IMG/VR virus record: IMGVR_UViG_3300018080_000595
Span: 1-23,699 of that record
DNA: 23,699 bases
From: a virus
Direction: 5' to 3' (one strand)
Shown here: positions 11,953 through 17,396 of the stretch, piece after piece
How positions within the stretch are numbered: position 1 is the stretch's first letter
Layout: every line of letters begins with the position of its first letter
Notes under the pieces: model-generated
The model's database searches: none
The model's input: only the letters and a program-made list of their open reading frames with translations
What the model was told of the DNA's origin: nothing
Position numbers and translations under genes: made by a program

Positions 11953-12441
11953 ATGCACAGTATCAGCAAGGAATTCAAATTCGAGGCGGCACACCGACTG
12001 CCACTCCACGAGGGTGGATGCCGCAACCTGCACGGCCACAGCTACCGCGTCGTCGCCCATCTCGAGGGGGCCGAGTTGCGCCGTGTCGGTCCCTCCACCG
12101 GCATGGTCGCCGATTTCAAGGACCTGTCCACGGTGGTGCGCGGGATCCTGGACGAGGGGAAATGGTGCGGCGCGGACACGGTGCCGTGGGACCACGCCGT
12201 GATCCTGTGGGAGCAGGATCCGCTCCTGGAGGTGCTTCGTGCCGCGGACCTGGACCTGCGGGTCGTGGTGATGATCAACATGCCAACCGCTGAGAACATG
12301 GCCACCCTGCTCGCGTCGATGATCGCCAGGGGGTTGGCAGAGATCCCGGTGGTCGGCGCGGACGTGATCAGGGTGGACGTGTGGGAGACGGAGAAGTCGT
12401 GCGCCACGTGGGAGGCGCACTACGAGGAGGCGATCAAATGA
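11953..12441 (+). CDS. queD: 6-carboxy-5,6,7,8-tetrahydropterin synthase
   Basis: A 162-residue QueD homologue; converts dihydroneopterin triphosphate to 6-carboxytetrahydropterin, the second step to preQ0. Zinc ligands are His14 (FEAAHRLP), His27 and His29 (NLHGHSY). Cys23 takes the place of the catalytic Cys, Asp80-His81 (WDHAVIL) the Asp-His pair, and Glu145 (VWETEKSCA) the substrate-binding Glu. MVADFKDL is also typical. Longer than the 120-residue E. coli form by internal insertions. It starts directly after the previous stop and overlaps folE by ATGA. It heads the five-gene 7-deazaguanine cassette. Confidence 0.92.
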
Positions 12442-13016
12442 CAAAGCCGACAGAAGCAAACGCGCTCGCCGCGGTTCGGACCATGGTGGAGTACATCGGG
12501 GAGGACCCGGAGCGGGAGGGGTTGGTCGACACGCCGAAGCGCGTGGTCAAGTCCTGGAAGCACCTGTTCGGCGGCTACGACAAGAAGCCGGAGGGGATCC
12601 TCCAGACCGCGTTCGCCAGCGACAGCTACAACCAGATGGTGTGCCTCGGTCCCATCGAATACTGGTCCACGTGCGAGCACCACATCCTGCCGTTCTACGG
12701 CCACGTCTATGTCGCCTACCTGCCGGACAAGAACGGCAAGGTGGTGGGCGTGTCCAAGCTGGCGCGTGCCGTCGAGGTGTATGCACGCCGCCTCCAGATC
12801 CAGGAACGGATGACCGACCAGATCGCGGAAGTCGTGGAGAACACCGCAGGTGCCCTGGGCGTGGGCGTGCTGGTCCGGGGTCGTCACCTGTGCATGGTGG
12901 CGAGGGGGGTGGAGAAACGGGAAGCATGGATGACCACAACGGCCCTGCGTGGACGGTTCCTCGAGGACCCACGCACCAGGGGCGAGTTCATGGCCTTCGC
13001 GGGCCGGGAGGGGTAG
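12438..13016 (+). CDS. folE: GTP cyclohydrolase I, type IA
   Basis: A 192-residue GTP cyclohydrolase I. It turns GTP into 7,8-dihydroneopterin triphosphate, the entry step for both folate and 7-deazaguanine synthesis. The zinc ligands Cys79 and His82 ([10 protein letters not shown]) and Cys152 ([10 protein letters not shown]) are all present, as are [20 protein letters not shown] and the N-terminal [14 protein letters not shown]. It seems complete. ATG 12438 overlaps the queD stop. In this operon its product most likely feeds QueD rather than folate, since no folate genes lie nearby. Confidence 0.95.
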
Positions 13017-13019
13017 GAG

Positions 13020-13775
13020 ATGAAACGAGGAGCGGTGATCCTACTGTCAGGCGGGATCGACAGTACCACGTGCCTGGCGCGGCTACAGAACATGCACCTG
13101 ATCGACCCGGAGGAGATCGTCGCCCTGATCTTCGACTACGGCCAGACGTTGCGGCGCGAGCTCGACGTGGCCGTGGACAACGCCCAGAAGTACGGCGCCC
13201 AGCCCAAGATCGTGCGGGTCGACCTGGGGTGGATGGCACCGGAGTGCGGCCTGTTGAAGGGCAACACCGAGGCGGTCAAGGGGCTTCCGAAGGGGCGCGG
13301 TCGTGGCCAGATCGAGGATGGCGGTACGCCGCCCAGCTACGTCCCGTTCCGCAACGGGATCTTCCTGGCCTACGCGGTCGGATTCGCCGAGGCCCACGGG
13401 ATCAACAGCATCTACCTGGGCGCCAACGGGTTGGACAGCGGCAACTACTGGGACGACCGTCTGGAGTTTGTGGAGGCGATGGAGCGTGCGGCCCGGGAGG
13501 GCACCGACCCGTCGTTCCATCCGCGGATCTGCGCCCCGTTCGCCACCTGGCCCAAGGCCAAGATCGTGGACCTCGGTCGCAAGCTGGGCGTGGACTACGA
13601 CGCCACGTGGTCGTGCTACTTGGACGGGGAGGCCCACTGCGGCGAGTGCGACTCGTGCCGCCAACGGGAGGACGCGTTGTGGGCCGGCGGCTGGTACGAC
13701 GGGGAACAAACAGTCAAGACCCCGGACCAACTGGCCTACGACCGGGCGCACCGGGACGAGAGGGGGCACAACTGA
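13020..13775 (+). CDS. queC: 7-cyano-7-deazaguanine (preQ0) synthase
   Basis: A 251-residue QueC. It uses ATP and ammonia to turn 7-carboxy-7-deazaguanine into preQ0. The ATP-binding PP-loop SGGIDST is at residues 10-16. YVPFRNGIFLA and GANGLDSGNYWDDRLEF are the family's central motifs, and the zinc site is Cys199, Cys207, Cys210 and Cys213 (WSCY, then HCGECDSC). There is no glutamine amidotransferase fused to it, as found in the archaeosine-type Gat-QueC. GGGGTAGGAG precedes the ATG, and the stop shares one base with queE (TGATG). Confidence 0.94.
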   Translation: MKRGAVILLSGGIDSTTCLARLQNMHLIDPEEIVALIFDYGQTLRRELDVAVDNAQKYGAQPKIVRVDLGWMAPECGLLKGNTEAVKGLPKGRGRGQIEDGGTPPSYVPFRNGIFLAYAVGFAEAHGINSIYLGANGLDSGNYWDDRLEFVEAMERAAREGTDPSFHPRICAPFATWPKAKIVDLGRKLGVDYDATWSCYLDGEAHCGECDSCRQREDALWAGGWYDGEQTVKTPDQLAYDRAHRDERGHN

Positions 13776-14365
13776 TGCTGTACAAGGTCCACGAGATCGT
13801 GCGGTCGATCCAGGGCGAGGGCGCCAGGATCGGTATTCCCACCACGTTCCTGCGTTTCAGCGGGTGCAACCTCAACTGTCCGTTCTGCGACACCAAGGAG
13901 CACACGAATGGCCGCGACATGTCCCTTCAGATGATCCTGGACGAGGTCGAGGAGTTGGGGTCCGACGTGGTGTCCCTGTGCGGCGGCGAACCCGCGCTTC
14001 AGGTCGACAACGTCCTGGTCCGCGCACTCCACGCGCTCGGCGCCATGCTCACCATCGAAACCAACGGCACGCTTGCCGTGGCCGAGGGGATCGACTACGT
14101 GGTGGTCAGTCCCAAGGTCGGCCCGTCGCGTCTGATCGAGAACTTCAGCCGCCCCGTCGCCGAGTTGAAGTATATCGTGGAGGCCGGGTGCAAGATCCCG
14201 GTGCCACTGATCGCCGCGGACAACTACTTCCTGTCCCCCGCGTACGACGGGGACCGGGTGGTCCAGGAGAACGTGGACTGGGCGGTGCACCTGATCGAGG
14301 AGAACACTAGCGAGATTCCCTGGCGGCTCAACGTCCAGGCGCACAAGGCGTGGGGGCTGTCATGA
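13775..14365 (+). CDS. queE: 7-carboxy-7-deazaguanine synthase (radical SAM)
   Basis: A 196-residue radical SAM enzyme; rearranges 6-carboxytetrahydropterin into 7-carboxy-7-deazaguanine. Cys31, Cys35 and Cys38 (GCNLNCPFCDT) form the iron-sulfur site; SIQGEG (11-16) and LCGGEPALQ (GGEP at 70-73) bind substrate and SAM; the end LNVQAHKAWG matches QueE. Slightly short for the family (about 210-220 residues), as small QueE proteins often are. Start at ATG 13775 shares a base with the queC stop; the next gene overlaps by ATGA. Confidence 0.94.
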   Translation: MLYKVHEIVRSIQGEGARIGIPTTFLRFSGCNLNCPFCDTKEHTNGRDMSLQMILDEVEELGSDVVSLCGGEPALQVDNVLVRALHALGAMLTIETNGTLAVAEGIDYVVVSPKVGPSRLIENFSRPVAELKYIVEAGCKIPVPLIAADNYFLSPAYDGDRVVQENVDWAVHLIEENTSEIPWRLNVQAHKAWGLS

Positions 14366-15225
14366 GGGTGTTCGAGGTCGTGATCAAGCGCCAGGATCTC
14401 GAGGCGGTGATCGAGACGCTGTATCCCAACGTCCTGATCAGCTACGTCTACGCCCAGCGGTTCCTGCCCACCGTGGACCTGCTCGATGACAGGTTCCACT
14501 TCTTCCTGGACAGCGGCGCCCACAGCGCCAACACCCTGGGCATCGAGATCGACATCGACGAGTACATGAAGTTCATCGCCGACCGGTCCCACATAATCGA
14601 CGTGTACGCCGGGCTGGACGTGATCGGGGATCCGGTGGCCAGCGCGGAGAACCAGCGTGTCATGGAGGAGGCGGGGTTCGCGCCGTTGCCCACCTACCAC
14701 TTCGGGGAGCCGATCGCGGTGCTTGAGGAGTTGGCCGAGCGATACGAGTTCTTCTGCCTGGGCGGTGTGGTGGGCAAGAGCGACGCGGCGAAGATCATCT
14801 GGCTCGACGACCTGTACGCCCGGGTCCTGGCCAAGTACCGGGACACCCGCAAGATCCATATGTTCGGCGTGGGCAGCGAGAAGATCCTGCGCCGCTACCC
14901 GTTCTACTCCGCGGACTCGTCGGCCGGTTCCCTCCAGGCGGGCAACAAGACGTGGCACATGCAGGACGGGCGCACCTACAAGCTGCGGGACCTGGCCGAG
15001 AAGGGACTCAACACCGTCGAGGCTGTGCTCGCCGCCCAAGTGGAACAACGCGAGGACCTGGCCGGCGCCGAGAAGTGCAAGGTGCGGTTCACGCGGTGGC
15101 TGATGAAACGACACCGCCTCCAGGAGTCCGTCACGTCGATGTGGCGCGAGCGCGGGATCGAGTGGAACGACCAGACACGCGCCGACACGGCGCCACAGGA
15201 GATGTGCGATGGCCAAGCTCAATGA
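14362..15225 (+). CDS. dpdA: DpdA-like DNA transglycosylase (phage type)
   Basis: A 287-residue TIM-barrel protein of the TGT/DpdA kind. It is predicted to swap guanine in DNA for preQ0. Visible motifs: LDSGAHS (49-55) with Asp50 as the TGT-type acid; YAGLDVIGDP (Asp86); TYHFGEP (His113); LGGVVGK (133-139); HMFGVGS (166-172); and SADSSA with Asp185 as candidate nucleophile. It lacks the Cys-rich zinc site of tRNA-guanine transglycosylases and is shorter than them (usually about 375 residues), which fits phage DpdA proteins acting on DNA. It directly follows the four preQ0 genes by ATGA overlap. Exact subfamily is not settled from sequence alone. Confidence 0.85.
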   Translation: MRVFEVVIKRQDLEAVIETLYPNVLISYVYAQRFLPTVDLLDDRFHFFLDSGAHSANTLGIEIDIDEYMKFIADRSHIIDVYAGLDVIGDPVASAENQRVMEEAGFAPLPTYHFGEPIAVLEELAERYEFFCLGGVVGKSDAAKIIWLDDLYARVLAKYRDTRKIHMFGVGSEKILRRYPFYSADSSAGSLQAGNKTWHMQDGRTYKLRDLAEKGLNTVEAVLAAQVEQREDLAGAEKCKVRFTRWLMKRHRLQESVTSMWRERGIEWNDQTRADTAPQEMCDGQAQ

Positions 15226-15805
15226 CCCGCGATGGATCGAGTTGCCCGTGGGCAAGCTCGTAGGCGCCGATTGGAACTACAAGGTGGAGGACCCAGACCA
15301 GGCCGAGAAACTGATCGCCAACATCAAGCGCAACGGTCAGGTGGAGAACATCCTGGTGCGCGAGTTGGACACGGGGTTCTTCGAGGTAATCAACGGGAAC
15401 CACCGCCTCGCCGCGTTCAACCACCTCGGGATCAAGAAAGCGGTGTGCTTCAACTTCGGCCCGATCACCGACTCCCAGGCGTGGCGGATCGCCATCGAGA
15501 CGAACGAGACGAAGTTCAAGCGCGACGACGCCAAGCTGGCGGTCCTGATCAAGGAGATGACCAGCGGCAGCGGCGCCGAGTTCAACGTGGCCGACCTCAA
15601 CACCACGATGCCGTTCGACCGGGAAACCCTGGAGGGGTTCTCCCAGATGGTGGACTTCGACTGGAACGCGTTCAAGAAGGCCAACGACGAGCAGCTGAAG
15701 GCCCTCCAGGAGAAGAAGGACGCGAAGTCCAACGTGACGATCACCGTGGAGGCGACGTGTCCAGAGTGCGGCCACAAGTTCCAGGTGAGCGGCAAGAAGA
15801 AGTAG
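15209..15805 (+). CDS. ParB/sulfiredoxin-like nuclease-domain protein
   Basis: A 198-residue protein. The N-terminal half has the ParB/Srx fold: IELPVGKLVGADWN, then ANIKRNGQVENILVREL, then FFEVINGNHRLAAFNHLG (NGNHRLAA at 62-69). GNHR matches the phosphate/nucleotide loop of this fold. The C-terminus has one Cys-x-x-Cys (C184, C187), half of a zinc ribbon. Phage ParB-like proteins bind DNA, cleave it, or bind CTP. ATG 15209 lies 17 bases inside the dpdA-like gene, with AGGAG upstream, so it is translated with the cassette. It sits next to the large terminase gene and could act in packaging or DNA recognition. Confidence 0.75.
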   Translation: MAKLNDPRWIELPVGKLVGADWNYKVEDPDQAEKLIANIKRNGQVENILVRELDTGFFEVINGNHRLAAFNHLGIKKAVCFNFGPITDSQAWRIAIETNETKFKRDDAKLAVLIKEMTSGSGAEFNVADLNTTMPFDRETLEGFSQMVDFDWNAFKKANDEQLKALQEKKDAKSNVTITVEATCPECGHKFQVSGKKK

Positions 15806-15806
15806 C

Positions 15807-17396
15807 GTGGACGCGGCAATCCACAAGGACTTCCGCCCTCCTGTGGGCCACCTCCCGCGGCTGGTCGCGGACAAGTTCATCCGTCCACCGTCCCGGGACA
15901 GGCTGATCAAGCGTGCCGTGGCGATACGCAACCACCACATCGCCCTCGCTCGCAAGTCGGCGTCGGCGTTCATGGAGTACGCGTTCCTGGACGAGTCGAG
16001 CCGCCTTCCCTACGCCCAGCAGTGGTTCCACGACGAGTGGCACCAGGCCTGGGATCGGTATCAGCGGGTCATGGTGATCGCGCCTCGTGACCACGCCAAG
16101 ACCAGCAACGTGGTGGGGCGCGTGATCTGGGAACTGGGCAACAACCCGAACCTGCGGACCAAGGTGGTGTGCGCGAGCGACGGCCGGGCCAAGGAGCGCC
16201 TGTTCGAGATCGACCAGCACATCACCACGAACCCCCGTGTCCGGGAGGTGTTCCCCGACCTACGGCCGAACCCAGACGCGCCCTGGAACGCCCACCGTCT
16301 GGTCCTGATGCGATCCGCGAGGCACAGGGACGCGTCGGTGGAGGCCCTGGGCATCACCTCCACGGCGACTGGCGGCCGCGCCGACCTGCTGATCGCCGAC
16401 GACGTGGTGGACCGCCGCAACGCCCTCACCTTCCCGGCCCTCCGCGAGCAGATCAAGCAGGCATGGAAGGCGGACTGGACCAACCTCCTGGAGCCGGACA
16501 GCCGCGTCTGGTACATCTGCACGTTGTGGCACCCCGGGGACCTGTCCCACGAGATCATGGGCGGCAGCACGTACAAGGTGCTGCGGTACGACATCGACGC
16601 CAACTTCGGCGCGATCTGGCCGGACAAGTGGAGTGAGGCCGCGCTGCGGATGCGGTTCGACGAGATCCAGAGCATCGAGTTCAACCGTGCCTTCCGCAAC
16701 CAGGCGATCGACATCGAGTCCGCGCTGATCCGACCGGACTGGTTCGAGTTCAGCGACCTGCGCCAGGACCAACGGTTCGCCGAGTTGGTGGAGCAGGATC
16801 GGTTGGTGTTCTTCACCAGCTACGACCCCGCCGGCACGCCGAACCCACGGTCCAAGACCAGCAAGCAGCAGGACTACACTGGGTGCTGCGTTGGCGCGAT
16901 CGACCAGGAGCGCGGGGTCCTGTACATCGTGGACGCCTGGCACCAGCGGATGTCGGTCAAGACCCTGGCCGACGTGATCCACGCCGAGGCGCAGACATAC
17001 GATCCGTGGCTGGTCCTGATCGAGAAGATCGGCCTGTCCACCGTGGACGAGTGGGTGATCAACGAGCACCCCGAGATGGAGGGCCACATCAAGGTCACCA
17101 AGCCCAAGATCAGCAAGCAGATGCGCCTTCTCGGCGCCACCCCGTTGCTGGAAAAGGGCAAGGTGGTGTTCTCGGCCCACCTGGACCCGAACGGCGGTCT
17201 GTTCGACGGCAGCCGCGGCAGCCTTGTGGACGAACTGATCGAGTTCCCGTTCGGCAAGCACGACGACATGGTGGACGCCTTTTCGCAGCTGGTCGGTGCT
17301 GCACGGACGCACTTCCTTGACGTGGACGCCGACGGGGGGGAAGATGTAATGGAGATCCACATCGGCGACGAGGACGAGCATGAGTACCCGTTCTAA
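15807..17396 (+). CDS. terL: Terminase large subunit
   Basis: A 529-residue packaging motor/nuclease. Walker A is APRDHAKTS (92-100), Walker B LLIADD (194-199), and a coupling motif CTLWHPGD lies at 238-245. The C-terminal RNase H-like nuclease supplies Asp340 (YDPAGT), Glu406 (LIEKIG) and Asp486/Asp487/Asp490 (HDDMVDA). It cuts the concatemer and drives DNA into the empty head. It starts at GTG 15807, one base after the ParB-like stop, and overlaps the next gene by 17 bases. The family is firm; the headful or cos mode cannot be read from it. Confidence 0.93.
   Translation: MDAAIHKDFRPPVGHLPRLVADKFIRPPSRDRLIKRAVAIRNHHIALARKSASAFMEYAFLDESSRLPYAQQWFHDEWHQAWDRYQRVMVIAPRDHAKTSNVVGRVIWELGNNPNLRTKVVCASDGRAKERLFEIDQHITTNPRVREVFPDLRPNPDAPWNAHRLVLMRSARHRDASVEALGITSTATGGRADLLIADDVVDRRNALTFPALREQIKQAWKADWTNLLEPDSRVWYICTLWHPGDLSHEIMGGSTYKVLRYDIDANFGAIWPDKWSEAALRMRFDEIQSIEFNRAFRNQAIDIESALIRPDWFEFSDLRQDQRFAELVEQDRLVFFTSYDPAGTPNPRSKTSKQQDYTGCCVGAIDQERGVLYIVDAWHQRMSVKTLADVIHAEAQTYDPWLVLIEKIGLSTVDEWVINEHPEMEGHIKVTKPKISKQMRLLGATPLLEKGKVVFSAHLDPNGGLFDGSRGSLVDELIEFPFGKHDDMVDAFSQLVGAARTHFLDVDADGGEDVMEIHIGDEDEHEYPF

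Follow-up and report, generated by a model that had tools for sequence, protein, structure and literature searches.

A predicted operon for 7-deazaguanine DNA modification, with a variant QueC, upstream of the terminase gene of an uncultured phage

What would a phage do with a set of genes for a modified guanine placed just ahead of the gene encoding its terminase, and which base would end up in its DNA? The question is raised by an IMG/VR record of an uncultured phage, 23,699 bases long and a fragment of its genome (called here the window), in which the following genes lie in the order queD-folE-queC-queE-dpdA-parB-terL:

queD, 11953-12441, + strand: 162 aa, 6-carboxy-tetrahydropterin synthase
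folE, 12438-13016, + strand: 192 aa, GTP cyclohydrolase I; overlaps queD by 4 bases
queC, 13020-13775, + strand: 251 aa, 7-cyano-7-deazaguanine synthase of a variant subclade (YGQTLRRE, YWDD); 3-base gap after folE
queE, 13775-14365, + strand: 196 aa, 7-carboxy-7-deazaguanine synthase (radical SAM); overlaps queC by 1 base
dpdA, 14362-15225, + strand: 287 aa, candidate preQ0:DNA (guanine) transglycosylase; overlaps queE by 4 bases
ParB-like gene, 15209-15805, + strand: C-terminal zinc-ribbon-like motif, candidate DpdB-like partner; overlaps dpdA by 17 bases
terL, 15807-17396, + strand: large terminase (phrog_38, 7e-72); starts one base past the ParB-like gene

A first-pass annotation had read queD, folE, queC, queE, and a dpdA-like gene as a single run from 11953 to 15225. 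The coordinates are correct, and each gene product matches its family strongly. The run had also been described as fused by overlap; the genes do overlap, but there is no fusion protein.

QueD matches PF01242 (PTPS, 6e-26) and phrog_2389 (1e-28), and in an alignment with phage QueDs, its C23, H27, D80-H81, E114, and E145 are invariant. FolE matches PF01227 (GTP_cyclohydroI, 2.4e-64) and exceeds the cut-off of TIGR00063. QueE, in which Cx3Cx2C is present, matches the QueE-like family phrog_2076 (5.4e-31) and PF04055 (1.5e-14), while QueC matches PF06508 (2.9e-49) and has no Gat domain. FolE, QueD, QueE, and QueC make up the established pathway from GTP to preQ0.

The window has a sibling, IMGVR_UViG_3300030616_000001 (G001), of 94,958 bp, whose ends share 117 identical bases, so that it looks like a complete genome. 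It is 95-96% identical to the window over most of the shared region, and genome-wide absences were taken from it. All genes of G001 lie on one strand, and they include the same operon, portal, capsid, and tape measure as well as T4-type tail tube and baseplate proteins, DnaB helicase, RecT, and YqaJ nuclease. Comparison of the window with G001 gives dN/dS of 0.06 for queD, 0.29 for folE, 0.22 for queC (from an ungapped codon comparison), 0.16 for queE, and 0.06 for dpdA, and so purifying selection acts on all five genes, which are being maintained. A value of 1.03 for queC was rejected, as it arose from a gapped nucleotide alignment. The ParB-like gene shows no nonsynonymous changes at all relative to G001.

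Much hangs on whether the fifth protein belongs with enzymes acting on DNA or with those acting on tRNA. Its best match is to the phage DpdA family phrog_887 (1.5e-41), to which 227 records of the phage collection also match, phages 9g and CAjan among them, and it is ~24-43% identical to phage DpdAs. In alignments with viral DpdAs the invariant residues include D50-S51, which aligns with the DSGG motif of E. coli TGT, H113, H166, and D185, which by analogy with TGT may be the nucleophile. H166 is the equivalent of H196 in 9g, a residue described as one that DpdA conserves and DpdA2 lacks (PMC6884629). The zinc site of TGT (CxCxxC...H) is missing, there being only three scattered cysteines. No Pfam family matches the protein, the tRNA-guanine transglycosylase family PF01702 included, and in a tree it lies well away from E. 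coli TGT, on a lone branch among phage DpdAs whose nearest neighbour is not strongly supported. On these three grounds, Pfam, zinc site, and tree, the protein was rejected as a tRNA-guanine transglycosylase. The first-pass reading, against which a grouping with such enzymes would have told, thus stands.

A relationship to TGT is nonetheless visible in the predicted structure. An AlphaFold2 model of DpdA, for which 47 viral homologues were used, is confident between residues 50 and 190 and weak past residue 190. Its best matches in the PDB are archaeosine TGT (1iq8, 9.7e-7) and then bacterial DpdA, which inserts preQ0 into DNA (7ui4, 7.7e-6), with TM scores of 0.45-0.50 by query length, and the modelled fold appears clearly, if loosely, to match the TGT-like barrel of the superfamily. 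Among predicted viral structures, some of those closest to the model belong to phage proteins that carry the annotation queuine tRNA-ribosyltransferase. Comparing profiles with E. coli TGT gave an alignment of just the region of the DSGG motif, at 1.7% probability, and so the kinship of DpdA with TGT rests on fold.

If these assignments hold, then FolE, QueD, and QueE would convert GTP to 7-carboxy-7-deazaguanine (CDG), and QueC would convert CDG through the amide ADG to preQ0 (7-cyano-7-deazaguanine). DpdA, perhaps with the product of the overlapping ParB-like gene as its DNA-binding partner, would exchange guanine in phage DNA for preQ0; some of the G positions would then carry 2'-deoxy-preQ0, which would block host restriction enzymes. 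It is probable that the operon is such an anti-restriction system, putting 2'-deoxy-preQ0 in phage DNA, where we infer the activity of the operon, the exact base, the role of the ParB-like protein, and the protection alike. There is precedent in the phages classified as group 2 by Hutinet et al., which carry DpdA with FolE, QueD, QueE, and QueC but no amidotransferase, CAjan and Rosebush being examples (PMC6884629). In these, dPreQ0 takes the place of ~32% (CAjan) and ~28% (Rosebush) of G, and CAjan with an inactivated dpdA loses both the base and its resistance to restriction (PMC6884629). The window encodes all four of the pathway enzymes and a DpdA of the 9g family, hence the same gene set and the same prediction of dPreQ0.

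The prediction also depends on what else the phage encodes. The first-pass annotation had seen no QueF, ArcS, or amidotransferase-QueC fusion and had called for a wider search, with DpdC added. In the complete sibling, no QueF, TGT/ArcS, QueA, glutamine amidotransferase domain, or Gat-QueC was found, nor, in PADLOC scans of its non-structural genes, any DpdC. The same scans gave a single weak match to DpdF (4.9e-5), probably a generic helicase. The sole radical-SAM-like protein found in G001 besides QueE is a DUF5131 protein with CxxxCxxC (66587-67429). The enzyme assignments of the first pass and its choice of 2'-deoxy-preQ0 are therefore supported, although the form of QueC tempers any statement of the exact base.

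That form is unusual. The signatures of canonical (cluster 1) QueC are SGGxDS, YxQxHxxE, VPxRN, YPDC, and zinc motifs, and Y35, R99, Y131, and Y189 of the E. coli enzyme have been shown to be essential (PMC13329287). The QueC of the window keeps all four essential residues (Y40, R111, Y143, and Y200) as well as the P-loop, VPFRN, SCY, and the four-Cys zinc motif. The earlier remark that all key residues are visible needs correcting, however, for the protein departs at the His of YxQxHxxE, replaced by Leu, and at the Pro and Cys of YPDC, so that it reads YGQTLRRE and YWDD in place of the usual YGQxHxxE and YPDC or YPDT. PDC or PDT occupies the latter site in 82 of 86 QueC relatives drawn from viral and bacterial contigs. 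YWDD appears there only in two near-identical contigs and in an unrelated phage, L162, whose QueC (L162:6001-6693) is 54% identical and which also has dpdA, queD, queE, and folE. The YWDD proteins form a supported viral clade (99/98) in a tree. YWDD combined with Leu was encountered in no more than two phage lineages, each of which carries dpdA. The notion that this QueC is a detached domain of Gat-QueC found no support, as the protein does not join Gat-QueC in the tree. The subclade could reveal which residues determine whether preQ0 or ADG is made.

Might the variant enzyme then stop at, or mainly release, ADG (7-amido-7-deazaguanine), so that the DNA carries dADG? The replaced His and Cys belong to two substrate-side motifs, and the replacements fall within the supported subclade just described. 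Also, the QueC of phage CP20 (Firehammervirus CPt10 in the taxonomy) departs from the signature, at other positions, and the DNA of CPt10 is reported to be fully dADG (PMC8306585). Against this, the residues known to be essential in E. coli are all kept, and those replaced are not reported as essential (PMC13329287). On this evidence we consider dADG rather unlikely, though worth keeping in mind beside dPreQ0.

The readings that would take the modification away from DNA altogether fare worse. That the genes raise the level of queuosine in host tRNA, leaving DNA unmodified, has the precedent of phages that carry preQ0 genes and lack DpdA, for which such a role has been proposed (PMC6884629). 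Here, however, the DpdA that overlaps the operon belongs to a proven DNA family, no TGT, QueA, or QueF was found, and DpdA of 9g does not replace E. coli tgt (PMC6884629), all of which makes a tRNA role very improbable. Less probable still is that QueC and the TGT-like protein act as a pair on protein rather than on DNA, in the manner of type IV CBASS (Cap9/Cap10) or Qat. QueC and TGT-family proteins have been reused for the deazaguanylation of protein in CBASS and Qat systems (PMC13329287; PMC11996544). But the full preQ0 pathway, the membership of DpdA in its family, and the context of phage structural genes all speak against a protein target; none of the six gene products was identified by PADLOC as a CBASS protein; and the spacing from YxQ to E is that of canonical QueC and not of Cap9.

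The ParB-like protein matches phrog_723 (9e-21), and a ParB-like gene likewise adjoins dpdA in Rhodococcus phage Finch, Arthrobacter phages Sonali and Mufasa8, and Cellulophaga phage phi38:2. Mycobacteriophage CRB2 has been proposed to have a partner of the DpdB type, itself of the ParB superfamily (PMC6392294), and ParB-domain genes have been noted beside phage genes for cytosine modification (PMC12783734). By analogy it is plausible that the product of the overlapping gene binds DNA as a partner to DpdA. In a related complete genome, G010, which is without DpdA, the gene that precedes terL is nevertheless a ParB gene, 69% identical, and so the role of the protein would not be tied to DpdA alone.

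The position of the operon is best seen against its terminase relatives, 34 contigs (L108-L141) with terminases 46-100% identical, one further weak match having been excluded. The order terL-portal is kept among them, but the region upstream of terL differs. A recognised modification gene is found there in 15 of the 34, a comparison in which many contigs are short, the gene calls are simple, and the presence of cassettes is listed contig by contig. In the lineage of the window the region holds preQ0-DpdA genes with queC. Four contigs (L122, L124, L130, and L135) have instead a divergent DpdA with folE, queE, or queD, plus ParB but no queC; L125 has DpdA and ParB, and L128 has queD, queE, and ParB. 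Elsewhere the genes are of other kinds: L114, L119, and L129 have a TET-associated glycosyltransferase (TAGT, PF20691), which G016 has ~2.7 kb upstream of terL; L110 and L111 pair a C5-cytosine methyltransferase with a radical SAM protein of the B12 type; and L118 has an amino acid:DNA transferase (ADDT, PF18724). Six more relatives have upstream of terL only an uncharacterised radical SAM protein. G010, whose TerL is 80% identical, is 97,966 bp with 144 identical end bases, and it gives no match to DpdA, QueC, FolE, QueD, TAGT, or ADDT.

A complete phage genome, G024 (96,656 bases, 127 identical end bases), carries a longer run, ~20 kb from terL (L250:1323-8523; 28.8-36.0 kb of the genome): queD, queE, folE, a gene for a 130 aa protein, genes for SPASM radical SAM, P-loop kinase-like, and glycosyltransferase-like proteins, a divergent dpdA, and two parB genes. 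There is no QueC anywhere in G024, and its cluster is predicted to make a CDG-derived, possibly glycosylated hypermodified base. A protein of 115-132 aa follows folE in the QueC-less clusters (L122:2422-2769, L124:5634-5981, L130:1710-2066, L135:1175-1573, and L250:3062-3454); it belongs to phrog_17812 in L124 and has a His-rich motif reminiscent of QueD-like T-fold proteins.

It may be, and we hold the matter to be evenly balanced, that in this ~95-100 kb lineage the stretch upstream of terL is a dedicated, swappable locus for base modification, usually with a ParB-like gene, and that the variant QueC is one specialised part that may change the base inserted. The comparison suggests that phages exchange whole systems of DNA disguise at one chromosomal site, which would offer a direct route to study how phages outpace host restriction.

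As to the host, the first-pass annotation had thought it myxobacterium-like. That view is unsupported: a scan with the terminase profile of a genome collection (one genome per species, 84,980 species) found no cellular relative. Neither the window nor its sibling carries tRNAs. The window does encode a predicted lipoprotein (1136-2005) in which a long Asp/Thr repeat, of a different length in the sibling's copy, precedes a Cys-containing domain, but this is insufficient to name a host.

How, finally, does the locus compare with known systems? It resembles most the group 2 phages, CAjan and Rosebush, sharing with them DpdA, FolE, QueD, QueE, and QueC and the lack of amidotransferase and QueF. 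In Rosebush-type phages such as Arbiter, the same genes adjoin the terminase gene, much as in the window. The window differs from group 2 in belonging to another phage lineage, ~95 kb in size with baseplate genes of the contractile-tail type, in its gene order, in a DpdA only ~26-31% identical, and in a QueC of a rare subclade; also, Pfam scans of its sibling gave no match to the preQ0 transporter Vut_1. Finch, Sonali, Mufasa8, and phi38:2, with a ParB-like gene beside dpdA and preQ0 genes, are like the window in arrangement but low in sequence identity, and phi38:2 encodes QueF besides. Enterobacteria phage 9g, which carries dG+, has the same DpdA family, FolE, QueD, and QueE, but its QueC is a Gat-QueC, whereas that of the window stands alone with no amidotransferase. 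Bacterial DpdA, the second-best match by fold, shows no significant match by sequence. The adjacency of DpdA to a gene of the ParB superfamily recalls the DpdA-DpdB pair of the dpd island (PMC6392294), but that island, which makes dADG, has DpdC and further Dpd proteins, and neither DpdC nor the rest of the island was found in the scans of the sibling. No near-identical DNA occurs in annotated phage records. A DpdA profile fetched 78 IMG/VR loci and QueC one more; in 52 of these 79, DpdA and the complete set of four preQ0 genes lie within ~6 kb. The preQ0-DpdA gene set is thus widespread and already known from other phages, and the window is a further case, one that adds a deep, unstudied lineage to the phages predicted to replace guanine by 7-deazaguanine.
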